Shown here: piece by piece, positions 38,606-52,533 of the stretch | Layout of the letters: each line of letters opens with the position of its first letter | Numbering within the stretch: the first letter of the stretch is position 1 | From: Sulfurovum sp. | Lineage (GTDB): Bacteria; Campylobacterota; Campylobacteria; Campylobacterales; Sulfurovaceae | Reading direction: 5' to 3' | DNA: 57,857 nt | Assembly: GCA_027068485.1 (NCBI GenBank) | Contig: JAMOSB010000015.1 | Coordinates: forward strand, 1 to 57,857 | The notes under the pieces: model-generated | What the model saw: the letters and a program-made list of their open reading frames with translations, nothing else | Told to the model about the DNA's origin: nothing | Database searches by the model: none | Made by a program: the position numbers and the translations under genes

Positions 38606-39523
38606 ATGAAACTTACCCTGCGACAGATGGAGATTTTTTTGAATGTGGTGTCAGAGGGACACCTAACCAATGTAGCCAAATCGATGAAGCTTAGCCAGTC
38701 TGCTATCTCGATGTCGATTAAGGAGATGGAGAATATCATCGGTCGTCCTGTCTTTGACCGTATCAATAAAAAGTTGGTACTCAATGAGGTGGGGCGTGCG
38801 TTTCATAAGGAGATCGATCCACTCTATAAGAAGCTCTCTGATATCGAGTATGAGTTTAAAAACTCTGAGAACAAAGGGATGATACGGGTTGGAGCGAGTA
38901 CCACGATTGTGGACTACCTAATGCCCTCTATCATCTGTAGCTATATGAGCTCCTATCCTGATGTGAAGATCACACTCAAAGAGGGGAACACCAAAGAGAT
39001 CAGCCAGATGATCGATGAGGGGAGTATCGATGTAGGATTTGTGGAGGGGTTTGTCTCCTCCTCCAATATCATCAAAGAGAAGGTCGGTGTCGATGAACTC
39101 GTCGTCATTACTGCCGATAAGAAGCTTGTGGCTCCATGCTATATCGATGCGTTGGCTCAGAAGAAGTGGGTACTGCGTGAAGAGGGGTCGGGGACACGGG
39201 AGATATTTTTAGACTATATCAAAGAGAAAGTGGAGGATCTCAATATCTTTTTTGAGTTGGGGCATACGGAGTCGATCAAGAGCATCTTGATGAACCGTGA
39301 GTGTCTCACCTGTATCTCCAAAATCTCAGTCGATACCGAACTCAAAGAGGGCAAACTCTACCAAGTGGGGGTTAAAAACTTCTCCTGTCGACGCGACTTT
39401 TTGATGATCTATCACAAAGATAAGTACCATAGTGCCCTCTTTGAGAAGTTTCTCTTCTTCTCTAAGAAGTTGATGTTTCAGATGCTTGATAGTGGGCAAA
39501 AAGTACAGTTTAAGGCACGCTAA
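38606..39523 (+). CDS. LysR-family transcriptional regulator
   Basis: A 305-residue LysR-type regulator. The N-terminal winged helix-turn-helix is clear (KLTLRQMEIFLNVVSEGHLTN, SQSAISMSIKEMENIIGRPVF, INKKLVLNEVGR). The effector-binding domain follows from about residue 88 (GASTTIVDYLMPSIICSY). The divergent YeiH-type transporter with a LysR palindrome in the gap is the probable target; regulation of other sulfur genes cannot be excluded. Its end overlaps mobA by 14 bases on the opposite strand. Confidence 0.93.
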   Translation: MKLTLRQMEIFLNVVSEGHLTNVAKSMKLSQSAISMSIKEMENIIGRPVFDRINKKLVLNEVGRAFHKEIDPLYKKLSDIEYEFKNSENKGMIRVGASTTIVDYLMPSIICSYMSSYPDVKITLKEGNTKEISQMIDEGSIDVGFVEGFVSSSNIIKEKVGVDELVVITADKKLVAPCYIDALAQKKWVLREEGSGTREIFLDYIKEKVEDLNIFFELGHTESIKSILMNRECLTCISKISVDTELKEGKLYQVGVKNFSCRRDFLMIYHKDKYHSALFEKFLFFSKKLMFQMLDSGQKVQFKAR

Positions 39524-40088
39524 CTGCTCTGAGTGCCTCTGTGTACTCCTCGGGGTAGTTGAGATTGGTGAAGTACTCTTGGCTCTCATAGGTGACAAAG
39601 TGTGTATGGCTCTGTGTGAGTAGGGTTGTGAGCTTATGTTGGTTGGCGTGGAGCTGTGCTTTGGCGTGTGGGAGTAGGGTGCGTCGGTAGCGTCCACATA
39701 GAGGCTGGATGCCGTGCGGACTCTTGGCGATGATAGCATCATACGCCCCCTCCACTGCCATAAGTGCATTGATGACCTCCTGCCCCACAAATGGAGCATC
39801 CACACTCAAGACAAACACCTCATCGATAGTAGGGAGATGCTCAAAGATCGAGATGATCCCTATCAGTGGAGAGCTATCAGGGTAGCGGTCATAGAGGATG
39901 GGTGCGGTAAAGGTGAACTTGTCACTACGAGCAGAGAGGTAGACACGGGCAAAGTAGCGTGTGAGTTTATCGTACTGAAACTCACTGAGTGTGGGGTAGC
40001 CTCCAAAGGGAAGCAGGGCTTTGTCTTGACCCATACGGGAGCTTTTGCCTCCTGCGAAGATGATAGCGGGGATAGGGTAGCGTCTCAT
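39510..40088 (-). CDS. mobA: Molybdenum cofactor guanylyltransferase MobA
   Basis: Attaches GMP to molybdopterin, making the MGD form used by PsrA. The 192-residue protein has the family start PAIIFAGGKSSRMGQDKALLPFGG (GTP-binding loop GGxSxRMGxDKA) and FVLSVDAPFVG in the middle. It overlaps the end of the MFS gene by four bases (ATGA) and is the last of four coupled genes gspF-RDD-MFS-mobA. Its end overlaps the LysR gene. Confidence 0.93.
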   Translation of the reverse strand: MRRYPIPAIIFAGGKSSRMGQDKALLPFGGYPTLSEFQYDKLTRYFARVYLSARSDKFTFTAPILYDRYPDSSPLIGIISIFEHLPTIDEVFVLSVDAPFVGQEVINALMAVEGAYDAIIAKSPHGIQPLCGRYRRTLLPHAKAQLHANQHKLTTLLTQSHTHFVTYESQEYFTNLNYPEEYTEALRAVSVP

Positions 40089-41197
40089 GGTGCGGTGATC
40101 CTCCTCTGGTGAAGGTGTAGAAAGAGTAGGGCGAGTAGGGTGATAATCGACTCAATTAAAAACATCGACTCCCCATAGATTCGCCCTGAGAGTAACGCCC
40201 CCATAGACCCCCCAAGCCCAAAGGCAATCCCCAAGAAAAACTGCTGTGCGAGCTTCTTTTGGGTGTAGAGTGAGAAGACATAGGTGATCGCTGCGGTGTG
40301 GTAGAGGGCGAAGCTAATCGCATGGAGTGATTGTGAGGCGAAGGTGAGGGTGATGGAGTCAGGAAAGAGGTGAAGCATCATCCAACGCCCCGCGGTGATA
40401 AGCGTGGCAAACTGTAGTATCTTCAAGAGGTTACGCTGTAGCAGTCCCCCTTGGAAGTAGAGCATCACCACCTCACAGATCACCCCAAAACTCCACATCC
40501 ATGAGGTCATCTCTAGTGAGATACCGTGAGCGGTCTCATAGATCGTAAAGAAGTTATAAAACCCCCCAAATCCCACCTGCATCAAGAAGACCGAGACCCA
40601 AAATGCCCAGTAGCGTTGGAGTGAAAAACTGGCGTTGTTTTGGATGAGGGTGTGAGGGGTAGTGTCGTAGCGTGAGAGGAGTACCCCAAAGAGTAGGGTG
40701 AAGAGTGCCATACTACTGAGATAGTAGAGTGCCTCATGGGGAGAGGAGAGTACCTGTCCCAACCATAGCGCAATCCCCATAAACCCTAGTGACCCCCACA
40801 GACGCACCTTGCCATAACGGCTCTTGGAGAGGCTATCGAGTGCGATGGTCTCGATATAGGGGAGTGAGACCCCCATCGATGCTCCAAAGAGGAGATTGGC
40901 ACCGAGGTAGACCCAAAAGCTCTCAATCGTTGCGATAAAGAGCAGTGTCCCTAAAAAGGTGAAAACCAAGGAGAGGAGATAGACACGGGGGGTGAGTGAG
41001 AGGTAGTGCCGAAAGAGAAACGGAAGCAGAAACCGCATAAAGGGAGCCGCGGCAAAAATCGTCCCGACCTCAAGAGTAGAGTACTCCAGCTCTAGAAGAG
41101 CCTTTGGCATAAAGATGACATAGACCCCAACCAGTGCAAAGTAGAAGAAGTAGTAGCCCCCAAGTAGTGGGGCGAAGTATCGTCTAGCGGTAGGCAT
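40085..41197 (-). CDS. MFS transporter (LacY/nucleoside-type, HcaT-like)
   Basis: An inner membrane transporter of 370 residues with eleven or twelve hydrophobic segments. The pattern GASMGVSLPYIETIALDSLSKSRYGKVRLWGSLGFM matches the MFS_1-like (PF12832) group, which includes NupG and HcaT. The substrate is unknown. It starts by sharing the last base of the RDD gene stop (TAATG) and ends over the mobA start, so the four genes from gspF to mobA are one unit. Confidence 0.85.
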   Translation of the reverse strand: MPTARRYFAPLLGGYYFFYFALVGVYVIFMPKALLELEYSTLEVGTIFAAAPFMRFLLPFLFRHYLSLTPRVYLLSLVFTFLGTLLFIATIESFWVYLGANLLFGASMGVSLPYIETIALDSLSKSRYGKVRLWGSLGFMGIALWLGQVLSSPHEALYYLSSMALFTLLFGVLLSRYDTTPHTLIQNNASFSLQRYWAFWVSVFLMQVGFGGFYNFFTIYETAHGISLEMTSWMWSFGVICEVVMLYFQGGLLQRNLLKILQFATLITAGRWMMLHLFPDSITLTFASQSLHAISFALYHTAAITYVFSLYTQKKLAQQFFLGIAFGLGGSMGALLSGRIYGESMFLIESIITLLALLFLHLHQRRITAP

Positions 41198-41688
41198 TAT
41201 GGTTTGGGAGGGGAGACGATGACTGCGGTGTTGCTCAGGAGGTCATGGAGGGTTTTGCTATCATTTCTAAAAAACATCATCACCCACCCAAAGAGTGTCA
41301 GGAGTGAGAGTACCGCCGAGAGGTTACGAAAGAGGATGATAAAGGGGGTTGGCTTCTCCCCTGTGGCAAGGTCAATAAGGGTGAGGTTGTAGGCACGGTA
41401 GCCTGGTGTCTGAGCGGTCTTGATCATAAAGAGTGTCTGCGTGATCACCAGTGGTACAAGGATATAGAGCCAGCCTAGAGCCTTGTGTTGGGCAAACCCT
41501 TCACGCCCTCCCATCACAAGATAGAAGACCACATACATAATAGGCATCACCAACATAAAGCTATCAGTGAGAAATGCTTTGACCTTGAGTCCTTTGGAGG
41601 CGTAGGGGAGCGGTGGTGTAGGCTCTGGTGTGCTAGATGGTTGGTGTGCGTGTGTCAGTTTTTTGATCGTACGAAAGCGTTTTTTCAT
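41197..41688 (-). CDS. RDD-domain membrane protein
   Basis: A 163-residue protein with an RDD domain. After a basic and proline-rich N-terminus it has three hydrophobic segments (about 38-60, 75-90 and 125-145). KTAQTPGYRAYNLTLID carries the conserved Arg, and an Asp appears in KVKAFLTDSFMLV. The function of the domain is not settled; some members affect ion transport. It is coupled by one-base overlaps to gspF before it and the MFS gene after it. Confidence 0.8.
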   Translation of the reverse strand: MKKRFRTIKKLTHAHQPSSTPEPTPPLPYASKGLKVKAFLTDSFMLVMPIMYVVFYLVMGGREGFAQHKALGWLYILVPLVITQTLFMIKTAQTPGYRAYNLTLIDLATGEKPTPFIILFRNLSAVLSLLTLFGWVMMFFRNDSKTLHDLLSNTAVIVSPPKP

Positions 41689-42902
41689 TAGTTTAACCCC
41701 TGTGTCATAGTAAAGATAGGTAGTAGCATCGCCGAGACAATCACCCCAACGACTACCCCGATAAAGAGCATCATAAAAGGCTCTAGGAGTCCAAGCAGAA
41801 GCTTAAGCTTATCCTCGTTCTCCTCTGCGTAGAGTTGAGAGATGTTGTCAAGGATATGGGCGACCTCACTCGACTCCTCTCCAAGGGCGAGTGACTGCAT
41901 AAAGTTGCGTTTGAGCTTGAAGCCTTTGGAGAGCTGTAGAGCATTGGAGAGTTTGTTCCCCTCCAAGACCTTCACCGAAGCACGCTCAAAGCGTGTGATG
42001 AGCTGGTAGTTGCTAAAGGATGCGGTTGAGAGTTTGACTGCTTGAGCATACGCAACACCTGAGCTGAGCATCAGTGAGAGGATATAGGAGAAGCGTCCTA
42101 GCTCATGGTTTTGGATCAGTGTGCCAAGTACAGGGACGCGAAGCAGTAGCCCATCGATCACTTGGTGAAAGCGTGAGAGGTGCTTGTAGGCGAGTTTGAA
42201 GAGGAGTACCCCACTTACCACCGCTACGATAAGGTGGATATAGTAAGCCGTCAAGAAGTCACTAATGCCCAAGACAAACTGGGTGATAGGGGGGAGTGAT
42301 TGGTCGGTATCTTCAAAAATCTCTGTGATTTTGGGGACGACAAAGGCGATGAGAAAAGAGGTCATTGCAATGGCAACGGTGAAGATAATGGTGGGGTAGA
42401 CCATCGCCCCTTTAACCTGCTTCTTGACCTTGTTTTGTGCGGAGAAAAACGCCCCCATATTGGTGAGGACTTCGACCATCTTACCACTCTGCCCTGCGAT
42501 ATTGAGACTCTGGATATAGAACTCAGGCATCGCATAGACCTTTTGGGTATTGAGGGCGTGAAAGAGGGATTTGCCCTCATCGATCATCGTCTTGATAGAG
42601 TTGAGAAAGGAGACATACCGCTTCTCCCCCTCGTGCTGATTTTCGAGGAGTTTAATTGCGGTGAGGATGGTCATTCCTGAGTTGAGGTAGGAGGAGAGTT
42701 CTTTGGAGAAGGAGGCGAGTAGCTCCCCTGGCATCTGTCGCTTGGAGAACGCCTCCAGTGAGAACTCCTTGGTTGGAGCAAGGGACTCATAGTAGATATT
42801 GCGTGTGCGAAGCTTTTGACCCGCCTCCTCTTGCGTGGTGGCAGTGACGGTTCCTTTGACGCTGTTTCCCGTGTTGTCGAACCCTTTATATTTGAAAAGC
42901 AT
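41688..42902 (-). CDS. gspF: Type II secretion inner membrane platform protein GspF
   Basis: The polytopic platform protein of type II secretion, 404 residues with three membrane segments (about 165-190, 220-240 and 375-397) and two repeated cytoplasmic T2SSF domains. MLFKYKGFDNTGNSVKGTV is the usual opening. LSLMLSSGVAYAQAVKLS and ARGEESS-like ALGEESSEVAHIL are conserved parts of the second domain. It leads an operon with RDD, MFS and mobA genes that has no obvious secretion link, and it is separated from the other gsp genes by the exosortase and pilin block. Confidence 0.93.
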   Translation of the reverse strand: MLFKYKGFDNTGNSVKGTVTATTQEEAGQKLRTRNIYYESLAPTKEFSLEAFSKRQMPGELLASFSKELSSYLNSGMTILTAIKLLENQHEGEKRYVSFLNSIKTMIDEGKSLFHALNTQKVYAMPEFYIQSLNIAGQSGKMVEVLTNMGAFFSAQNKVKKQVKGAMVYPTIIFTVAIAMTSFLIAFVVPKITEIFEDTDQSLPPITQFVLGISDFLTAYYIHLIVAVVSGVLLFKLAYKHLSRFHQVIDGLLLRVPVLGTLIQNHELGRFSYILSLMLSSGVAYAQAVKLSTASFSNYQLITRFERASVKVLEGNKLSNALQLSKGFKLKRNFMQSLALGEESSEVAHILDNISQLYAEENEDKLKLLLGLLEPFMMLFIGVVVGVIVSAMLLPIFTMTQGLN

Positions 42903-42973: not shown

Positions 42974-43450
42974 ATGAAACACTTCACGCTGAAATATTTT
43001 CTCTTTTTGGGACTGCTCTTTGGACTACTCTACGCCCCACTCTTGCCTCTAGCGGGCTATCTCAACACCCTACAGACAGAGCTGATACTCTATGGACTCT
43101 CACACTTTTTGGAGGCTGGACAGCTAGAGGGGATTGATATCTGGATCACCCCTCACTACAAGATCATCATCACCCAAGCGTGTAATGGGATGATCCCACT
43201 ACTCTTCCTCTACGCCTCCTACCTCGCCTACCCCGCACCATGGTACTACAAACTCCGCTGGATGGGGATTGGGTATGTGAGTTTTTTGGTGGTCAATATC
43301 GGGCGGATTGTACTGGTGGTTAGGGCAGTGGAGCGTGAGGGGGGACAGGGGAACTTCTACTGGTCTCATGACCTTGTTGGCAATCTACTCCTCATGGGGG
43401 TGGGGTTGCTTCTCTTTGTGCGTTTTATACAGCGGGCTAGAGTGTACTGA
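42974..43450 (+). CDS. Exosortase/archaeosortase-family membrane protein (minimal)
   Basis: A polytopic membrane cysteine transpeptidase candidate, only 158 residues where many exosortases have 250-500. Five hydrophobic segments are visible. The three catalytic residues of the family are in order: Cys70 in TQACNGM, Arg111 in NIGRIVLVV and His132 in WSHDLVGN. Exosortases recognise C-terminal sorting signals such as PEP-CTERM and process them in the outer face of the membrane. No protein in the window has a clear PEP-CTERM-like tail, so the substrate is unknown. It lies between gspF and the pseudopilin genes on the opposite strand, which suggests a partnership with type II secretion. Confidence 0.8.
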   Translation: MKHFTLKYFLFLGLLFGLLYAPLLPLAGYLNTLQTELILYGLSHFLEAGQLEGIDIWITPHYKIIITQACNGMIPLLFLYASYLAYPAPWYYKLRWMGIGYVSFLVVNIGRIVLVVRAVEREGGQGNFYWSHDLVGNLLLMGVGLLLFVRFIQRARVY

Positions 43451-43856
43451 TCTTGAAGTGGAAGTAGATGGAGGAGTGTTTGCCTTTGAGCATCACCTCA
43501 TCAACAATCGCTGTAGGTCCTATGGAGTCTTGGGAGGGGCTGATCTTGAGGGGTTCGGGGATGAAGAAGTCCCGACTCTGTTTCTGGAGGATAGCACGAC
43601 TCTCAAAGTTTTTGATCTTGAAGTGCTTCTGGAGTATCTCATAGGCATCTTTGTTCTCTTTATGGTAGGTGGTGACATCCTCTGTGAGGAAGAGGGAGTC
43701 TTGCCATGAGAGTTTGTTGCGTTCGGAGATGTAGACAATCTGTGCGTGGTTTTGGCTATGGAGCTTGAGGACATAGATAATCGACACCGAGATGATAATG
43801 ACAGAGATGAGTATCTCGATAATGGTAAAGGCGGGACGCAAGGGTGTGGTTCTCAA
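43437..43856 (-). CDS. Minor pseudopilin of type II secretion (GspI/J-like)
   Basis: A 139-residue protein with a type IV prepilin N-terminus: RPA-FTIIEILISVIIISVSIIYVL, with E14 at +5 and Ala9 instead of Gly at -1. The start is TTG at 43856, which overlaps the stop of the previous pilin gene as TTGA; a longer frame at 43901 would lie inside that gene. The globular part has no recognised motif. It is the last gene of the three-gene minus-strand pilin block and ends over the exosortase gene by 14 bases. Which minor pilin (H, I or J) it is cannot be decided. Confidence 0.75.
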   Translation of the reverse strand: MRTTPLRPAFTIIEILISVIIISVSIIYVLKLHSQNHAQIVYISERNKLSWQDSLFLTEDVTTYHKENKDAYEILQKHFKIKNFESRAILQKQSRDFFIPEPLKISPSQDSIGPTAIVDEVMLKGKHSSIYFHFKISTL

Positions 43857-44404
43857 TAGAAATCTCCCGAATTGGCAACAAGCTGGGTGTTTTTGAGCCA
43901 TAGCTCTTGGGCATCCTCTAGGGTCTCTACTACTTGTGGCTCCCCAAAAAATGCGGGGAGGAAATAGACCCCTTTGGGGCTTTTGAGGATGAGTTGTGTG
44001 GAGCTTCCATTGCGATAGAAGTCGATCTTGAGACAGACTTTTTGATCATTGTAGCGTCCATACTCTAGGTGCCGTAAGGCATCATTGCTATCGAGGGTAT
44101 AGGGTTCTATTGCATTAAGATCAATGGCGTGTTTGTAGGGTACAAAGCTCCCCCCTTCCCCTCTGCGTAGGTAACAGGTGTGACACTTATCTACACAGAG
44201 GAGTGTCGCCTCTGCTCCGTGGAGTGCGTCGTGTTGTGTGATAGAGGATTTGAGGTTGAGTGGGGTGAGGGCTTTGGGTCGGCTCTCCCCGAGTGTCACC
44301 CCCTCAAACCCCAAAAAGTAGACGATGGAGATGATGAGGATAACAATGAGTAGCTCAATGAGTGAGAACCCATTGTGCATACGAGGGGGAGTGGTGTGAG
44401 GCAT
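43853..44404 (-). CDS. Minor pseudopilin of type II secretion (GspH/I-like)
   Basis: A 183-residue prepilin-type protein. NG-FSLIELLIVILIISIVYFLGF gives Gly12 at -1 and Glu17 at +5, the standard prepilin peptidase site. The globular domain includes an unusual three-cysteine group C70-x3-C74-H-T-C77, which looks like a metal or disulfide site and is followed by RRGEGG. The gene sits 8 bases after gspG. No good ribosome site is seen, so it is probably read by coupling from gspG. Confidence 0.78.
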   Translation of the reverse strand: MPHTTPPRMHNGFSLIELLIVILIISIVYFLGFEGVTLGESRPKALTPLNLKSSITQHDALHGAEATLLCVDKCHTCYLRRGEGGSFVPYKHAIDLNAIEPYTLDSNDALRHLEYGRYNDQKVCLKIDFYRNGSSTQLILKSPKGVYFLPAFFGEPQVVETLEDAQELWLKNTQLVANSGDFY

Positions 44405-44412
44405 CGTCTAGG

Positions 44413-44859
44413 CTATTTGTTACACTGGCTGAAGCGGATGTCACTATTACTCTCATCGCCTCCCTCTTTTCGGTCTGCTGCAAAGCTGATGATCTCCACG
44501 CCATCCCCTCGTTTGAGGTAGACAAATGGAGTCTTCCACGCATCTTTTGGAAGCTCTTTGAGGTAGGGTTTGGAGCGGTAGTTGGGGTAGCGGTCACTGT
44601 CGGGATTGCTTAGGAGTGCTTGGAACCCCTCTTCAGTTTCAGGAAAGACTCCATTGTCGAGCTTAAACATATCGAGGCGTTTTTTGAGATCATTCATCTT
44701 GAGGCAGGTGGTGTCTCGCTGTGCCTCATCGGCTGCGTCCATCAATCCTGGTGCTACAACGGCAACCAGCCCACCGAGTATCACGATAACTATCAGAAGC
44801 TCAATAAGAGAGAATCCTGCTCTCAATGGTGGGGTATGGGGTCTGCTTGGTTGGTTCAT
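44413..44859 (-). CDS. gspG: Major pseudopilin GspG
   Basis: The main subunit of the type II secretion pseudopilus, 148 residues. I choose the ATG at 44859 (MNQPSRP) because AAGGATTGAT precedes it; the frame extends eight codons further without a ribosome site. Cleavage is expected after Gly15 (RAG-FSLIELLIVIVILGGLVAVVAP). The GspG signature follows: LKKRLDMFKLDNGVFPETEEGFQALL and a C-terminal calcium-site-like region near RKEGGDESNSDI. It leads the minus-strand pilin block and diverges from gspK. Confidence 0.93.
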   Translation of the reverse strand: MNQPSRPHTPPLRAGFSLIELLIVIVILGGLVAVVAPGLMDAADEAQRDTTCLKMNDLKKRLDMFKLDNGVFPETEEGFQALLSNPDSDRYPNYRSKPYLKELPKDAWKTPFVYLKRGDGVEIISFAADRKEGGDESNSDIRFSQCNK

Positions 44860-44939
44860 ATCAATCCTTAGGGTGTTTTTCATTTGGTTTAGTTTGCTTT
44901 GGTATAATGATACAGATTTTACTTTAATAGAGCTTTTAG

Positions 44940-45857
44940 ATGGATAAACCCAACTGTACCATAGACCCTAGTGTTTCGCATCGCAAGGGGATAGCCCTGT
45001 TGATTACTCTCTCTGTTTTGGCGGTGATTATCGCCTTGACCGCGGTGCTTTTGAGCTACTTTGATGAAGCACGCAATGATGCACGACGCACCGAGGCACT
45101 CATACAGGGTAATCTCTACTATGGGGATATACAGAAGCTCTTTGATCAGTTTGGTAAGAAGCGAGAGACGCTCTACACGACACTCTACAATACCCCCATC
45201 CCGCTGAGTTCTCCTGATGGACGGTTTGCGTTGATGTTGACCTGTCGACCCTTGGCAAATGGGGTCAATATCAACTGGTTGGGATTGGTCAATAGCCACA
45301 CCTACAACCGACACTATACCGTAGCCCAAGAACTCTTTGATACCCTTGCTCAACGCTATGGGATAGAGGATGCGTCACGGCTCTTGGATATGCTCCTTGA
45401 GGAGATAGGAATCTCAGAGAAATTTGCCCAAAAAGAGTACAGTAGACTTCGTCAAAAAACGGGTATTATATCACTTCAACAGCTTCATAAAATCATCGAT
45501 CGCTATCAGTTAGAGGTCAATGATAAGCGTGTAGCTCGTATTCCGTGGGAGGAGTACTTTGTCTTTAGTCCAGACCTCAAGCAGATCGATGGGGACTACA
45601 TCTCAGCGAACCTGCTCTCGATACTTTTTGATATCGACCTAGCACTTGTCCGTGACTCGTGGATCGCAGGAGAGGAGTCACTCAAGGCTTTTGTTACGGA
45701 GTATGGTGCGAGTTATGATAAAGCACTTTTTGCCTCCAAATTTGTGGAAGCTGCACAGTGTGAAGTGGGCTATGGGAGTGGGGATGAACGATTTAGATTT
45801 ACATTTGATGATATCCAAGGAGAGGTGAAAAATTTTGAATTTTACGGGAAGCACTAG
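44940..45857 (+). CDS. gspK: Type II secretion minor pseudopilin GspK
   Basis: The 305-residue large minor pilin that caps the pseudopilus tip. The N-terminus RKG-IALLITLSVLAVIIALTAVLL lacks Glu at +5, which is characteristic of GspK. The protein then has the helical T2SSK repeats and the order of the family (SRLLDMLLEEIG, YQLEVNDKRVARIPW). A TATAAT (44903-44908) lies upstream. This is the first gene of a long plus-strand unit; its end overlaps the next gene by 23 bases. Confidence 0.85.
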   Translation: MDKPNCTIDPSVSHRKGIALLITLSVLAVIIALTAVLLSYFDEARNDARRTEALIQGNLYYGDIQKLFDQFGKKRETLYTTLYNTPIPLSSPDGRFALMLTCRPLANGVNINWLGLVNSHTYNRHYTVAQELFDTLAQRYGIEDASRLLDMLLEEIGISEKFAQKEYSRLRQKTGIISLQQLHKIIDRYQLEVNDKRVARIPWEEYFVFSPDLKQIDGDYISANLLSILFDIDLALVRDSWIAGEESLKAFVTEYGASYDKALFASKFVEAAQCEVGYGSGDERFRFTFDDIQGEVKNFEFYGKH

Positions 45858-46770
45858 AGAGCTACTCTTGATACATAAATCGATGCGTCCTGTGACGCTA
45901 ACCCATCGTGTTGATGTGATGGTAACACCAGAGTTTTATACCCTCAAACGAGAGGCGTTACCTGTGAAGTACCTTTATCAAGCTAGACGGATTGCTCCTT
46001 CACTCTTTGTGGGGTTGTTAGAGGAGGGGCGAAGCTATCGCTACTGGGTCAGCAAGGAGTTGGACTCGTGGCTCTTTATCGCTTATGATGTGAGAGCGAT
46101 TAGAGCGTTTTTGGCATCTGAGGGGATTGGGGTCGCACAGGTAGGGAAGCTCTTCTTTGCTCAGCAAGCACTTGAAGCGTTTGAACACCCTATTGTCCTA
46201 GGAACAGAGCAGGCACTCACCCGCCTCGGAGAGACGGTTGTCGTGGTACCGCAAGTAGCACTAGATGATCAGGATGGAGCGGGACGCTTTGATAGTCGCT
46301 TCAGACCACGCAGTGGAGGGGTGAGCCTTGAGGGAGGAGGTAGTATGCTATTGAGTAGCAAGCACGCCCTACTCTTGAGTACACTCCTCCTTATCCTCGC
46401 AGGTATATTTGTCGCTGAGGGGTGGCGGTATCATCAGAGTGGAGAGGGAAGTAAAGCGGTGATGGAGGAGCTACTCACAGCATACCCCGCACTCCAAAGT
46501 AGCCTTCAACGCGATAATATCGCACAGAAGTATCGCACGATCGATACCCTAGAGCGAAAGAAGCGAGAGCAGGTCAAAGCACTCGCAGGGATGATCTTCA
46601 AGGGGGTGGTACTCACCTCACTCACACTAGACAATAAACACCTCTTGGCGACCTTTGAGTGTAGTACACCTAAGGTATCTAAACGCCTCACAGCACTACT
46701 CAAAAAAGCTCAGTTTCGTGTGACACCCGTAGCAGGGACGCATGAGTTGAAAGTGGAGGGGGTACTATGA
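45835..46770 (+). CDS. GspL-like inner membrane protein of type II secretion
   Basis: A 311-residue protein with a cytoplasmic N-terminal domain (1-170), one membrane segment at 177-196 and a periplasmic C-terminal domain. This topology and its place after gspK match GspL, which ties the GspE ATPase to the inner membrane. Sequence motifs of GspL are weak. The start is TTG at 45835, with AAGGAGAGG about a dozen bases before it, overlapping gspK by 23 bases. Identity rests on position and topology. Confidence 0.65.
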   Translation: MNFTGSTRELLLIHKSMRPVTLTHRVDVMVTPEFYTLKREALPVKYLYQARRIAPSLFVGLLEEGRSYRYWVSKELDSWLFIAYDVRAIRAFLASEGIGVAQVGKLFFAQQALEAFEHPIVLGTEQALTRLGETVVVVPQVALDDQDGAGRFDSRFRPRSGGVSLEGGGSMLLSSKHALLLSTLLLILAGIFVAEGWRYHQSGEGSKAVMEELLTAYPALQSSLQRDNIAQKYRTIDTLERKKREQVKALAGMIFKGVVLTSLTLDNKHLLATFECSTPKVSKRLTALLKKAQFRVTPVAGTHELKVEGVL

Positions 46771-47168
46771 GTTGGAAGCGATACCAAAATGAGTTGATGG
46801 TGTTTGTGGGGGGGGTACTGCTTCTGCTAGCACTGCTCTATAAGCATCAAGGCTACCAGATACAACAGCGTGAGATGGCAACACGCCTCCAAGAGATCCA
46901 TGACTTCAAAGAGATCGTTGCACTTAAGCGTGTATGGGATGATAAGCAGATGACCAAACGGATCGAGAAGCTCAAGCAGGTTGTCCCTGCTAGCAAGGTG
47001 ATATGGCGTAAAAAGGGTAAAAAATTGACAGCAACCTATAGCAAGTTGAGTGCTAAAGAGCTCAATCAGCTGGTGAGTAAACTACTCACTTTGGCTGTGG
47101 AGATTACAAAGCTTGGTATCACCAAGCGTGATACGGAGTACCGTGTGGAGTTACGATGCAAGTGGTAA
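46767..47168 (+). CDS. GspM-like small membrane protein
   Basis: A 133-residue protein with a membrane segment at about 8-25 and a periplasmic part containing a coiled-coil stretch (about 30-75) and then a compact domain (SAKELNQLVSKLLTLAVEITKLGI). This is the layout of GspM, which partners GspL. It overlaps its neighbours by 4 and 13 bases. The family cannot be confirmed by motif, so the call depends on gene order. Confidence 0.6.
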   Translation: MSWKRYQNELMVFVGGVLLLLALLYKHQGYQIQQREMATRLQEIHDFKEIVALKRVWDDKQMTKRIEKLKQVVPASKVIWRKKGKKLTATYSKLSAKELNQLVSKLLTLAVEITKLGITKRDTEYRVELRCKW

Positions 47169-47671
47169 AACGAGTCATAATGGTACTGGTGGTACTTTGG
47201 TTTTCGTTGTTGCTCTTTATGCCCAAAGAGGCACTCTACTATCAGCTAGAGCAACGCTTAGCTACAGAGGGGATTGAGATCAATGAAGAGGCGATAGCCG
47301 TAGGAGCGTTTAGTTTGACACTCAAGGGTGTTGCGATCTATGTCAAGGGGATTGAGGTGGCAACGGTGGAGCAGATAGAACTCTTTAGTCTGCTCTTCTA
47401 TAGCCGTTTGACGATCGAGTCCTTGCGTGTCGATGATACACTCAAAGCGATGGTACCCCAAGAGACCTATCATGCGACAGTATACCACTCCCTACTTTTA
47501 CCGCTAGAGATACGACTCGATGCCAATGGAAGTTTTGGTACGCTTACAGGGCATGTTGATATATCACACCACAAGGTGCGTATAGATTTTCCTGAGGTCA
47601 AATCACTAGGGGTACTACGAACACAACTCAAACAGGGTGAGGAGGGGCTTTATTATGAAACCGCTTTTTAG
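47156..47671 (+). CDS. GspN-like protein of the type II secretion operon
   Basis: A 171-residue protein with an N-terminal membrane segment (about 5-22) and a beta-rich remainder. The phrase LYYQLEQRLATEGIEINEEAIAVGAFSLTLKGVAIYVKGIEVATVEQIEL resembles the start of GspN, which is an AsmA-like domain of about 250 residues. This version is shorter and sits ahead of gspC, not at the operon end. Function unknown in detail; it is a candidate lineage-specific GspN. Confidence 0.55.
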   Translation: MQVVKRVIMVLVVLWFSLLLFMPKEALYYQLEQRLATEGIEINEEAIAVGAFSLTLKGVAIYVKGIEVATVEQIELFSLLFYSRLTIESLRVDDTLKAMVPQETYHATVYHSLLLPLEIRLDANGSFGTLTGHVDISHHKVRIDFPEVKSLGVLRTQLKQGEEGLYYETAF

Positions 47672-48500
47672 TCCACAACGCCTTGAAGGGCTGATCCTTC
47701 TTGTTGGGGTGATGGTGTGTGTCAAAGTGGTATGGTTTGGTATTGCCATGGTGTGGTTGCCACGGGTCGGTGTCGATCATCTCCCAGAGGTGGAGAGTCG
47801 TGCGCTCTACTATCGTGTCAAGCTCTCTCCCAATACCGTCGCTCCACCCAAAAAACAGCCCAAACCAAGAGTGAAACGAGTCCCACAAGGTACGATTAAG
47901 AACCTCAAGCTCCTTGCACTCTATCATGCCTTTGATACGACGGTGATTACGGTCAAGTATAAAGGAAAAAGTAAGGTACTATCCCGAGGGGATGAGATCG
48001 CAGGCTTTAGACTCAAAGGGGGGGGGAGTAACTTTGCACTCTTTAGTCGAGGAGAGCAGGAGTATACCCTCTATATGGATAAGAGTAAAACCACTCCTAT
48101 CACACGCCACTCAACTCCCAAGCACCGCGTGGAGAAAGCCTCTGGTGAGATGAAGGTTGAGGGGGAGGTGATCGATGCAGGAGATCATAAGATTGTCGAT
48201 AAGGCACTGGTCACACACTATGCAAGCAATCTCAAAGAGGTGATGAAAAATATCGGGATTGTTGAGGTACGAGAGGGGACAAAGCTTGCAGGATTTCGGG
48301 TGAGCTTTATCCGTCGTGGGAGTCCCTTTGCCAAGCTTGGGCTACAGCGGGGTGATATAATTCGCTCGGTCAATGGTGAGGTGATCCAGAGCTATAGTGC
48401 TGCGATGCGTATCTATAAAAATATCAACACAATGGATAGTCTAAGTTTGACTATCACACGAGGAAAAAAAGAGATGGAGTTAGAGTATGAAGTTAATTAG
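47655..48500 (+). CDS. gspC: GspC-like protein with PDZ domain
   Basis: An inner membrane protein of 281 residues that bridges to the secretin. It has a membrane segment at about 11-34, a proline-rich linker, a homology region near 85-160 and a C-terminal PDZ domain at about 205-281 (AGFRVSFIRRGSPFAKLGLQRGDIIRSVNGEVI). I choose the ATG at 47655 because GGAGGGG stands nine bases before it; a frame six codons longer begins at 47637. The 3' end overlaps gspD by 14 bases. Confidence 0.85.
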   Translation: MKPLFSPQRLEGLILLVGVMVCVKVVWFGIAMVWLPRVGVDHLPEVESRALYYRVKLSPNTVAPPKKQPKPRVKRVPQGTIKNLKLLALYHAFDTTVITVKYKGKSKVLSRGDEIAGFRLKGGGSNFALFSRGEQEYTLYMDKSKTTPITRHSTPKHRVEKASGEMKVEGEVIDAGDHKIVDKALVTHYASNLKEVMKNIGIVEVREGTKLAGFRVSFIRRGSPFAKLGLQRGDIIRSVNGEVIQSYSAAMRIYKNINTMDSLSLTITRGKKEMELEYEVN

Positions 48501-50451
48501 AGTTATATGGGGTATTGCCTTGGTTTTGTCTGTGAGTCTGAATGCCCAAGATGAGCGTGTCGATGTCAATTTTAGAAACCTTAGTGTCAAAGATTTTATT
48601 GAGATGGTCTCTAAGATTACGCAGAAGAATATCTTGATAGAGGGGGATCTCAAAGGGAAGATCAACTTTGTCTCTCAAACACCTATCAAGAAGAGTGCCT
48701 TGATCCCCTTGGCAAACTCCATCCTCTCGGCGAAGAACTTGACCCTTATCGATCAGGGAGAGTACTACAAAGTCGTTAAGGTTAATGATGCCGCAGGTGA
48801 AGGACTCGATGTGGTGAGTCAGATAGAGGGGGATACCATGAAGACAGTAATGTTCCCACTCAAAAATACCAATGCTGCGGTTATTCGTGCCAAGATCAAA
48901 CCACTACTTCATAAGAGTGCTAAGGTGATCTCCTTTAAGGAGAATAATGTACTAGCAATCACAGCCAAGCCACGCACCTTGCGTGCTATTGCTAAGGTGA
49001 TTAAGGCCGTAGAGCAGAGAGGAGAGAAACAGTCGGTTGTCTTGAAGCTTCAAAACTCTAGTGTACGAGATATCTTTAGTAATGCTCAAAATATGGCAAA
49101 GAAGATTTTCCCTCAAACCATTGAGAGTGAGAAGATTGATATCCTTAAAGATGAAGCGACCAACTCCATCATCATGGTGGGGAAACGAGACAATATCAAC
49201 CGTATGATTAAGTATATTAAACAGCTAGATATCAAAGGGGAGAGTACGGTACAGAAGATGTATGTTATCCAGCTCAAAAACTCCAATGTTGAGGAGATGG
49301 AGAAGATATTGAGTCGTCTCATCTCTCAGCTCAACAGTATGACTCCCTCCAATAAACCTGTCCAGAAAGGGAAAAAAGCCCAAAAGGCGATGGTGGTCTC
49401 AGATATCGAGAGAAATGCCCTTATTGTATTGGCGACAGCAGAGCAGATGCGTAATATCCGAGAGACAGTGCGTAAGATTGATGTCCCCAAAGCACAGGTC
49501 TATGTCAAAGCGAGAATTGTTGAGATCAATACCAACCTAGCTGAGCAAATCGGGTTGAGTTATGGCTTTGAGGGAGGGAAGATCACCGATAAGGGACTCT
49601 TCTCAGCAGCAGCCAATATGGGTGCCTCCTCCCTGATGGTCTCTCCTACACTACTAGGCTTCCTCAACTCTCAGACTACACAGTATGATAGCAATGGAAA
49701 CCCCTACACTACAACCGATAGACCCTTTAAGTTTGATAGTGGTATCAGTGAGGTGTTTGCACTGGGTGCTAAACTTGACCTACTCAAGCAAAATGGGGCA
49801 GCTCATATCCTGAGTGAACCCTCTGTACTCTGTACCAATAACAAAGAGGCCTCTATCCAAGTAGGGCGTACCCAATCGATCTTGACACAGGCACAGCAGT
49901 CGACTCAAGGGCAAGGCAATATCGTAAACAACTATTCACGAGAGGATATCGGTATCACCCTCAAGGTCAAGCCCCGACTCTCTAGTAACAATAAAGTCAC
50001 CCTAGAGGTGGAGGCGGAGATAGAGGATGTCCTCCCTGGTTCGGGTGCCTCTGCGGATAGACCTATTACCACCAAACGCAAGGTGGTCACTAGTGCCATT
50101 GTGAATAATGGTGAGACAATTATTTTGGGTGGATTGATTAAGAGTGCATCAGGTAAAAGTGTGGTACGCGTACCGATACTAGGAGATATCCCTATCCTTG
50201 GAGAGCTCTTTACGACACGGGGAGAGGCGAAGACCAAGGTCAATGTCGTCATCTACCTTACCCCCTATATCGTACGCAATAGTACCGATCTACACCGTCT
50301 GCGTACGGCACTCTCTGAGCTAGAGGAGATACAGATGCGTTACAATGGTTTTGTTCATAAGGGACTCCAACAGCGTCTCAAACACACGCCAAGTCGACGG
50401 ATACGCACACTGCCCAAAAGTAATCTTGATATCTTAGAGAGCGGAGAGTAG
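48487..50451 (+). CDS. gspD: Type II secretion outer membrane secretin GspD
   Basis: The outer membrane gate, 654 residues. A signal peptide (1-20) is followed by the N0 domain (VDVNFRNLSVKDFIEMVSKIT), N1-N3 repeats and the C-terminal secretin domain, with the family mark VPILGDIPILGELF around 560-580. The C-terminal tail after the secretin domain is short and basic (QRLKHTPSRRIRT). It overlaps gspC and is two bases ahead of gspE. Confidence 0.95.
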   Translation: MKLIRVIWGIALVLSVSLNAQDERVDVNFRNLSVKDFIEMVSKITQKNILIEGDLKGKINFVSQTPIKKSALIPLANSILSAKNLTLIDQGEYYKVVKVNDAAGEGLDVVSQIEGDTMKTVMFPLKNTNAAVIRAKIKPLLHKSAKVISFKENNVLAITAKPRTLRAIAKVIKAVEQRGEKQSVVLKLQNSSVRDIFSNAQNMAKKIFPQTIESEKIDILKDEATNSIIMVGKRDNINRMIKYIKQLDIKGESTVQKMYVIQLKNSNVEEMEKILSRLISQLNSMTPSNKPVQKGKKAQKAMVVSDIERNALIVLATAEQMRNIRETVRKIDVPKAQVYVKARIVEINTNLAEQIGLSYGFEGGKITDKGLFSAAANMGASSLMVSPTLLGFLNSQTTQYDSNGNPYTTTDRPFKFDSGISEVFALGAKLDLLKQNGAAHILSEPSVLCTNNKEASIQVGRTQSILTQAQQSTQGQGNIVNNYSREDIGITLKVKPRLSSNNKVTLEVEAEIEDVLPGSGASADRPITTKRKVVTSAIVNNGETIILGGLIKSASGKSVVRVPILGDIPILGELFTTRGEAKTKVNVVIYLTPYIVRNSTDLHRLRTALSELEEIQMRYNGFVHKGLQQRLKHTPSRRIRTLPKSNLDILESGE

Positions 50452-50453
50452 GA

Positions 50454-51965
50454 ATGCACTTTGCTCGTCTAGAAGATGTCAATCTCGAACCACTCTGGGA
50501 GGAGGAGATTAACCATAAGGTTGCCCTCAAGCATATGCTTCTGTTTTCGCTCTATCGAGAGGAGAAGATCTGTGTCGTTGAGGAGAGTACCTTAGCTGAG
50601 GCACTCAACTACCTCTCTCAACTCTCATTGGCGTATCCTATCTATCTGGTAGATCTTCAGAGTTTTGAACGGCTCAAAAATAAGTTTCTTGAGATACAGA
50701 CGGGGTCTGATTTTGAGGAGATGAGTACGACTTCAGATGAGCTTATCGAAGTGGAGTCTGATCTCTTGGAGTTTATCCGTAACTCCCAAGACCTCCTCTC
50801 AAGTGAAGAGTCAGCCCCGATTATCAAGCTGGTTAACTCACTCTTTTTTCAAGCAATCAAGAAGGGGGCGAGTGATATTCACATCGAGAGTGCAGAACAC
50901 AAAGGGGAGGTACGCTTGCGTATGGATGGAGCACTCAAGAAGCATATCGATCTCGAGAAGAGCATTGTGACTTTGGTGATTAACCGTATCAAGGTTATCT
51001 CTAGCTTAGATATCTCAGAGAAGCGTATCCCCCAAGATGGACGGACACAGATTAGTATTTCAGGTAAGACACTCGATGTACGGGTTTCGGTACTCCCTAC
51101 CTACCATGGAGAGCGTGTGGTGATGCGTATCTTGGCACAAGGGGATCATATCCCTACTCTTGCCTCTTTGGGCTTTCAAGAGGATATCACCCAAAATCTT
51201 CACAAACTACTCAACCATGCTCACGGGATGATACTTGTGACAGGTCCTACGGGATCGGGTAAGTCAACGACACTCCATGCGTGTCTACAACACATTGCTA
51301 CCCCTGATAAAAATATTATTACCGTAGAGGATCCTATCGAGTATAACGCAGAGAATATCAGCCAGATACAGGTTAACAGTAAGGTGGGATTGACTTTTGC
51401 TGCGGGGTTGCGTTCGATTTTGAGACAGGACCCAGATATCATTATGGTGGGAGAGATTCGAGATAGTGAGACTGCAGAGATTGCACTACGCTCCGCACTC
51501 ACTGGGCATATCCTCCTCTCTACACTTCATACCAATGATGCGACCTCCTCTTTGAGTCGTCTAATGGATATGGGGATAGAGAACTTTTTGATCTCCTCTA
51601 CACTCCTTGGAGTACTTGCCCAACGCCTTACGCGTAAACTCTGTAGTGAGTGTAAGGAGCCAGTTTTTCTCTCTGCTTCAGTAGCAGAAGAGATTGGTGT
51701 GGCACGCGAAAAGAGCTATTTTGGAGCGGTAGGGTGTAAGGCGTGTGACTTTACAGGCTACCATGGACGGCAGGCGATTGGAGAGCTTTTTGTGATTGAT
51801 GATGCAGTCAAGGGGATGATGAAAGAGGGCTACAATGATCACCAGATACGCGAAGCGATGAAAAAAGAGGGAATGAAGACGATAGCCCATCGACTCAAAG
51901 AGATGCTAATTGCAGGTGAGACGAGCTATGAAGAGGCGATCCGTGTAGGATTGATGGATGGCTAA
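50454..51965 (+). CDS. gspE: Type II secretion ATPase GspE
   Basis: The cytoplasmic traffic ATPase that powers pseudopilus growth, 503 residues. The Walker A GPTGSGKST is at 264-272, the Asp box ITVEDPIEY follows, then Walker B IIMVGEIRD and the His box TGHILLSTLHTNDA. A four-cysteine zinc domain is near the C-terminus (CSECKEP ... CKACDFTG). The N-terminal domain is about 110 residues. It is followed, with an 8-base overlap, by a pilin gene. Confidence 0.95.
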   Translation: MHFARLEDVNLEPLWEEEINHKVALKHMLLFSLYREEKICVVEESTLAEALNYLSQLSLAYPIYLVDLQSFERLKNKFLEIQTGSDFEEMSTTSDELIEVESDLLEFIRNSQDLLSSEESAPIIKLVNSLFFQAIKKGASDIHIESAEHKGEVRLRMDGALKKHIDLEKSIVTLVINRIKVISSLDISEKRIPQDGRTQISISGKTLDVRVSVLPTYHGERVVMRILAQGDHIPTLASLGFQEDITQNLHKLLNHAHGMILVTGPTGSGKSTTLHACLQHIATPDKNIITVEDPIEYNAENISQIQVNSKVGLTFAAGLRSILRQDPDIIMVGEIRDSETAEIALRSALTGHILLSTLHTNDATSSLSRLMDMGIENFLISSTLLGVLAQRLTRKLCSECKEPVFLSASVAEEIGVAREKSYFGAVGCKACDFTGYHGRQAIGELFVIDDAVKGMMKEGYNDHQIREAMKKEGMKTIAHRLKEMLIAGETSYEEAIRVGLMDG

Positions 51966-52533
51966 ACGCAACGCCTTTACGCTGATGGAGGTACTTGTCT
52001 CTATCGCACTATTGGGGATTATCCTCCCTGCTCTCTATAGTAGTGTTCTACTTCTTCGTGACTCAAATCAGCATCTCTTTCACTATTTACAAAAAGCAAA
52101 AACCATTGGAAAAGCAACCGAACTCCTCTACTTGGATATCTTAAGCTCTGATGGTAACCTGACTATCACCAAAGAGGGGGTAAGTCGACTCTGTCTGGAG
52201 GAGACACGAAACACGCTGTATGGACTCCCTAGAGCCAAGGTCTGTTGGGTTGTGACCAAGGAGCGTGATCAGTTGGTGAGAGTAGAGGGGGGAGTGTATC
52301 ATCTACCCTTAAAATCAGAAGAGAGCGTCGCGGTAGATCCTGTGATGACGGGGATTGAGCTTTTTGATGTCTATTACCAAAAAGGGAAAGTCTTGGTCAT
52401 ACTTCAGTCAAGAGGCAAAGAGGCTATTACCTTTTTGGTACAGGGGATTCATCCACCCAAGAAAAAACCAAAAAAACCGAAAAAGCTAAAAAAACCTCTT
52501 CCACTTCTAGGTGATCAAAATAAGAGTAACTAA
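51958..52533 (+). CDS. Minor pseudopilin, GspJ/GspI-like, with lysine-proline tail
   Basis: A 191-residue prepilin-type protein. NA-FTLMEVLVSIALLGIILPALYSS gives Glu11 at +5 and Ala6 instead of Gly at -1. The C-terminus ends in a KKKPKKPKKLKKP tail, unlike the usual pseudopilins, which could bind nucleic acid or an acidic surface. It starts inside the end of gspE by 8 bases. Exact pilin type not decided. Confidence 0.75.
   Translation: MAKRNAFTLMEVLVSIALLGIILPALYSSVLLLRDSNQHLFHYLQKAKTIGKATELLYLDILSSDGNLTITKEGVSRLCLEETRNTLYGLPRAKVCWVVTKERDQLVRVEGGVYHLPLKSEESVAVDPVMTGIELFDVYYQKGKVLVILQSRGKEAITFLVQGIHPPKKKPKKPKKLKKPLPLLGDQNKSN

Follow-up and report, generated by a model that had tools for sequence, protein, structure and literature searches.

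The product of a small gene in a type II secretion system (T2SS) locus of a Sulfurovum species is, judging from its sequence, a genuine exosortase of an unnamed subfamily. We refer to it as Xrt, and to the whole 57,857-nucleotide stretch of DNA that was analysed (contig JAMOSB010000015.1) as the window. Xrt is paired with a previously undescribed tripartite tail on giant proteins of the Sulfurovaceae, and the system that the two make up is linked to the T2SS and to client-specific outer-membrane barrels. We propose that this family has a dedicated system for surface display, with Xrt as its exosortase. As a whole, this proposal, which comprises export of the giant proteins, their retention by the tail, their processing by Xrt and some functional role for the T2SS link, is in our opinion likely. 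Most of what is known about exosortase systems comes from comparative genomics and from exopolysaccharide loci; our literature search found no paper that describes such a system in Sulfurovum.

The assignment of Xrt to the exosortase family, made in the initial annotation, is borne out by profile searches, in which the protein scored 45.4 bits against TIGR04178 (E 7e-12; cut-off 23) and 29.3 bits against PF09721 (cut-off 25.7). TIGR04178 was matched by all 63 of the Xrt sequences that were aligned, i.e. the window copy and 62 from relatives. The proposed catalytic set of Cys70, Arg111 and His132 is invariant in this alignment (63/63), and we retain these three as the predicted catalytic residues; N71, N108, F128, D133, G136 and N137 are also invariant (63/63). 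The sequence is hydrophobic and, together with an AlphaFold2 model (mean pLDDT 92.8, pTM 0.86) that features five helices and a two-strand hairpin before the Cys, is that of a multi-pass membrane protein. A comparison of the model to solved structures returned no match at E <= 0.001. The 63 relatives score with several subfamily models simultaneously. Among the nearest named models are XrtH and XrtX. The scores of Xrt against XrtX (NF046081; 32.8 bits, cut-off 170) and XrtH (TIGR04177; 32.6 bits, cut-off 86) are far under the cut-offs, and its identification as XrtH, XrtX or another named exosortase was therefore rejected. The size of the protein, which had been regarded as unusual, is not: 158 amino acids is ordinary for the exosortase family, in which curated subfamily models have 158 (XrtH), 159 (XrtP) or 168 (XrtX and XrtY) positions.

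The coordinates confirm that xrt is located between gspF and three pseudopilin genes, on the opposite strand (Table 1). It is divergent from gspF, from which it is separated by 71 bases, and convergent with the last pilin gene, such that the 3' ends overlap by 14 bases. A consensus scan for promoter-like sites found none, although such a scan says little. The designation of the locus as GspDEFGK stands in part: models support GspG, GspD, GspF, GspE and a GspC relative, but not GspK. Indeed, a Pfam search of the ORFs at the gspK/L/M/N places yielded no match, and those at the gspK, gspL and gspM positions have no model support; the ORF at the gspN position weakly matches GspN_Lepto (18.5 bits, under cut-off). 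The gene at the place of the fourth pseudopilin, after gspE, adjoins Xrt in one genus. On the other side of the locus (window positions 39510-41688) are mobA-like, MFS-type transporter and RDD-family genes, which stay downstream of gspF in most relatives of the pilin-gspF type.

Table 1. Features of the T2SS locus in the window, and predicted substrates of Xrt encoded elsewhere in the same genome (G000)
Feature	Location	Strand	Remarks
gspF, T2SS inner-membrane platform, divergent neighbour of Xrt	41688..42902	-	PF00482 141.5 bits
Xrt, exosortase-family protein, 158 aa	42974..43450	+	ATG start; TIGR04178, PF09721 over cut-off
Pseudopilin, 3' end overlaps Xrt gene	43437..43901	-	N-methylation motif weak, 16 bits, under cut-off
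Second pseudopilin	43853..44404	-	PF07963 28.1 bits, over cut-off; TIGR02532
gspG, major pseudopilin	44413..44883	-	TIGR01710 129.4 bits (cut-off 88.85); PF08334
Four ORFs at gspK/L/M/N places	44940..47671	+	Named by position
gspC-like protein	47637..48500	+	NF041515 GspC_delta 109.7 bits, under cut-off 150
gspD secretin	48487..50451	+	TIGR02517 369.4 bits, over cut-off 351.35
gspE ATPase	50454..51965	+	TIGR02533 546.2 bits, E 6e-164, under cut-off 630
Fourth pseudopilin, after gspE	51958..52533	+	TIGR02532 over cut-off
Predicted substrate 1, 2,012-aa frame, G000:C28	L131 10825-16863	-	Ends CGCEDAPIKSNGADALGLISMLSMMLMTLLTALFFVRKEEEQTH
Predicted substrate 2, 4,305-aa frame, G000:C11	L132 4295-17212	-	Ends CGCKDIESDSSDALSLMGVLGMMFITLFTGLYFIRREEEMRV

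The adjacency of xrt to a pilin gene and the overlap between the two raise the question of whether Xrt processes a pseudopilin of the T2SS, one of two roles that the initial annotation had offered. We consider this highly improbable. None of the three neighbouring pseudopilins has a motif, transmembrane helix and basic tail at its C-terminus, and as Xrt substrates they were rejected. Further, the convergent orientation means that xrt and the pilin gene do not belong to the same transcription unit, and in many genomes Xrt is retained far from pilin genes, with the tail proteins discussed below still present.

Xrt relatives are found in 89 of the 175 genomes of the window's family, the Sulfurovaceae; in a sample of 399 genomes from the whole order, 38 had a match. 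The records found by sequence are from Sulfurovum and related Campylobacterota, among them Sulfurovum sp. AR, in which Xrt adjoins a tailed protein of 958 aa (L046, L192). T2SS genes lie within about 10 kb of Xrt in 40 of 63 family copies, and they do so in two arrangements: pilin-Xrt-gspF (25 copies) and Xrt beyond gspD-gspE (15 copies). In 23 copies, a number that is an upper bound because of short contigs, Xrt is away from gsp genes, and its neighbours are glmS, nrdA, a zinc ABC transporter and others. The association with gsp genes thus recurs but is not obligatory. A match to exosortase models, retention of the Cys/Arg/His residues and linkage of homologues to gsp genes, on which the initial annotation stood or fell, were all found. 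The Xrt tree contains at least seven changes between the linked and unlinked states, and the linkage within the Sulfurovaceae may reflect one or two ancestral events.

Several peculiarities of individual loci were encountered. On a plasmid of Sulfurovum mangrovi (NZ_CP087125.1; L032 7877-8360), the Xrt relative next to a zinc ABC transporter gene appears to have been disrupted by a frameshift, and its annotation consists of two ORFs. Two different Xrt paralogues are in tandem beside the T2SS cluster in L069 (3830-5398) and L070 (9389-10546). In four loci (L035, L037, L041 and L042), a gene for a protein of 604-663 aa lies between Xrt and gspF; the predicted C-terminus of this protein looks like a mechanosensitive channel.

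The vicinity of the T2SS could also be a historical accident, with Xrt acting on tail proteins that never leave the inner membrane or that use a different route to the surface. The 23 unlinked copies are in keeping with such an explanation. Further, GspD is present in 153 of the 175 family genomes and in all but one of the 89 that bear Xrt; given this near-universality, the co-occurrence of Xrt and the T2SS says little. However, a single accident would hardly account for two arrangements that flank the same T2SS cluster together with an additional one in another family (L177), where a tailed 1,077-aa protein, a distant Xrt, GspF, a GspE-like protein, GspD and GspC are encoded one after another. 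Also, genus g2, most of whose members are missing GspD, is missing Xrt as well. Finally, there are precedents: MYXO-CTERM proteins depend on the T2SS for their surface display (PMC11980579), and GlyGly-CTERM proteins both rely on the T2SS (PMC11980579) and co-occur with it (PMC3237569). An accidental vicinity therefore appears rather unlikely to us, and we favor a functional link between Xrt and the T2SS.

In agreement with the initial annotation, we found no protein with a sorting tail encoded within the window. Candidates emerged from genomes in which Xrt is outside the T2SS cluster, where it is often beside a gene for a very large secreted protein having a hydrophobic, basic C-terminus (L045, L046, L058, L066, L079). 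Our first tail model (A1) was built from five tails of proteins whose genes adjoin Xrt in genomes other than the window's, and it picked out two proteins of the window's genome. An enlarged version (A3) was used for the co-occurrence counts. A scan of the window's genome for tails of the motif-helix-Arg type, as the initial annotation had recommended, gave exactly two strong matches with A3 (E 3.5e-23 and 1.3e-20), and these are the predicted substrates of Table 1. For the larger frame, translation could plausibly begin, with a signal peptide, about 60 codons in, which would result in a protein of about 4,240 aa. This protein contains 25 SdrD_B matches; the 2,012-aa protein contains six. A family of putative substrates that co-occurs with Xrt is thus in hand, consistent with the other proposed role, the processing of a secreted protein, and the giant SdrD_B tail proteins are likely the clients of Xrt. 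One open frame with a tail has 7,099 aa (L139, G172:C59). There are also tiny frames of 73-83 aa (L303, L304 and L305; G128:C84, G084:C218 and G124:C134) in which a barrel-like signal peptide (AGGDIxPV) leads almost immediately into the Xrt tail.

The prevailing pattern among 41 tails consists of a Cys (usually CxC), SD[SG]xxA[LM][GN], a transmembrane helix and [RK][RK]EE (RREE). Genus g11 has the motif S[IV]PAMG, and PSLGTWG occurs in a single tail. There is no PEP motif before the helix in any of the 41 tails. Seven tails, including both from the window's genome, were compared with the NCBIfam CTERM models, and none matched, nor did any of the seven match the IPTL-CTERM model. The Cys is present in all 41 high-scoring tails and missing from several of the lower-scoring ones; the notion of an invariant Cys was consequently dropped.

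The pairing of Xrt and the tail is strong. Of 90 good genomes, 47 have both, two have only Xrt, seven have only the tail, and 34 have neither (p 1.5e-15, uncorrected for descent). The corresponding numbers in genomes that are at least 97% complete are 34, one, two and 23. The seven genomes with a tail in which no Xrt was found speak against our proposal. In one of the Xrt-only genomes (G012), the giant gene beside Xrt runs off the contig. Most of the tails on which the model was trained are from Xrt-bearing genomes, such that some bias is possible, but the search itself was blind to Xrt status. To account for descent, independent pairs of genomes were drawn on a GspD tree of 75 genomes, which served as a stand-in for the species tree. 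Eleven pairs differed in Xrt; the tail followed in 7.6 of them on average and opposed in 0.0 (median p 0.008). A search of 28 good genomes that have no close Xrt yielded SdrD_B matches at E <= 1e-10 in G121 and G122 only, and the SdrD_B protein of G121 (2,909 aa) does not have an Xrt-type tail. In G122, which is 99% complete, no exosortase was found, and the tail and barrel (L181, G122:C50) are both devoid of cysteines.

Elsewhere in the order, families other than the Sulfurovaceae have more distant Xrt genes, whose neighbours encode proteins with other kinds of hydrophobic, basic tail (L168, L170, L175, L176), and the same is true of a divergent Xrt in the window's own genus (G103, L182). This is as expected of dedicated enzyme-substrate pairs. 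In one of the other families (L170-L174), the gene after Xrt encodes a second membrane protein, about 200 aa long, and tails of the VPLSPLALGFL type are seen on proteins encoded nearby.

About 41 of 51 distinct tail genes (duplicates were removed by hand) have, immediately downstream, a gene for a small, OmpA-like outer-membrane barrel. Both substrate genes of the window's genome are followed by such a gene, and the encoded barrels match PF13505. The AlphaFold2 model of the barrel encoded next to the 2,012-aa protein (C28) has eight strands (mean pLDDT 84.8), and it matches OmpA, Ail and NspA in structure comparisons. Two cysteines of this barrel, C60 and C62, are located in loop 1, which connects strands 1 and 2 and which would be extracellular provided that the N- and C-termini face the periplasm, as in OmpA. 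In all 45 pairs that were compared, Cys is either present both in the tail and in loop 1 of the barrel (41 pairs) or missing from both (four pairs). Excluded from this count were L104, in which the model match is not C-terminal, and L102, whose tail is cut by a contig end; L182, whose divergence puts it beyond the reach of the tail model, was included manually. None of the 15 single-Cys tails has a CxC barrel partner, whereas 19 of the 26 CxC tails do. After phylogenetic correction, the correspondence of CxC and CnC patterns in tail and barrel had no significance. Loop-1 Cys presence changes twice on the barrel tree, neither time against the tail, and with about two independent changes a phylogenetically corrected proof of the covariation was not reached. 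Ten distinct Cys-bearing tail genes have no adjoining barrel gene (e.g., L133, L146, L147, L180).

What purpose might the tail Cys serve? By analogy to the proposal for MYXO-CTERM, it could be lipidated; the barrel would then be a mere neighbour, and its cysteines would form a separate, intramolecular disulfide. The Cys of MYXO-CTERM is invariant in a GCGC motif, cleavage requires it, and export is T2SS-dependent (PMC11980579); Sulfurovum tails often read CGC. However, Cys-less tails occur in four genomes that keep Xrt (G109, G120, G117 and G133), and thus not every client of Xrt needs the Cys. Where a barrel gene adjoins a Cys-less tail, loop 1 of the barrel is also devoid of Cys, a correspondence that lipidation alone does not predict. 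We therefore find lipidation with an uninvolved barrel doubtful. Because G109 and G120 keep Xrt while both tail and barrel are devoid of cysteines, the cysteines appear to serve the barrel rather than Xrt.

We thus return to our proposal of a dedicated display system, which can be put as follows. The giant proteins, which are of the SdrD_B, DUF11 and Ig-like kinds, would be exported by Sec, as suggested by their signal peptides. The C-terminal tail (SD[SG]xxA[LM][GN], helix and R-R/K-E-E) would then hold them in the inner membrane. Xrt, via C70, R111 and H132, very probably removes the helix, a prediction to which the co-occurrence data give good support, and the new C-terminus is probably transferred to another molecule, as sortases do. 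The freed protein may next be exported by the T2SS whose genes surround xrt; gene linkage and precedent lend moderate support to this step, and we lean slightly toward it. Finally, the Cys motif, which is just upstream of the cleaved tail, could engage the loop-1 cysteines of the eight-stranded barrel encoded directly downstream of the substrate and so fix the giant protein to the cell surface. We put forward this docking tentatively. Its most specific form, in which one or more tail cysteines form or exchange a disulfide with the loop-1 cysteines after Xrt cleavage and T2SS export, is speculative and on present evidence unlikely; if it were true, it would amount to covalent surface anchoring that combines an exosortase with a T2SS and with an outer-membrane receptor that bears thiols. 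With a single enzyme, just one giant client or a few of them, a barrel specific to the client and, in many cases, a T2SS nearby, the system is compact. It makes the crossing of the Gram-negative outer membrane by exosortase products directly testable in Sulfurovum, which is non-pathogenic, for example in Sulfurovum sp. AR.

Comparison to known systems helps to place Xrt. It shares with the exosortase/archaeosortase superfamily a profile match over the cut-offs, the invariant Cys/Arg/His, the build of a small multi-helix membrane protein, and co-occurrence with a tripartite C-terminal signal on large secreted proteins. It differs in that it falls under the cut-off of every named subfamily and in that the tails tested match no NCBIfam CTERM model. 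Regarding XrtH/IPTL-CTERM in particular, the seven tails compared gave no match to the IPTL-CTERM model (IPTLxxWG-type tail), and Xrt scored under the XrtH cut-off. The PEP-CTERM/EpsH system (PMC1569441) similarly pairs an exosortase with proteins having a signal peptide, motif, transmembrane helix and basic C-terminus; however, the Sulfurovum tails have no PEP motif, the locus is one for a T2SS rather than for exopolysaccharide, and the tail proteins of a genome number about one to six instead of twenty or more. MYXO-CTERM proteins resemble the clients of Xrt in having a GCGC-like Cys upstream of a transmembrane tail (PMC11980579), and their T2SS-dependent display has a parallel in the T2SS gene linkage seen here. 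Yet the Cys is invariant there, whereas here it is missing from some tails and tracks the barrel cysteines, and the myxosortase is treated apart from the exosortase family in that paper. Lastly, the GlyGly-CTERM/rhombosortase system (PMC3237569) also features a tripartite tail in T2SS-bearing species and dedicated enzyme-substrate pairs that are often adjacent. Rhombosortase, unlike Xrt, is a serine protease of the rhomboid family. Further, its authors reported no evidence of its being a marker for a particular T2SS subclass (PMC3237569), whereas the Xrt gene is often inside or beside the T2SS cluster itself.
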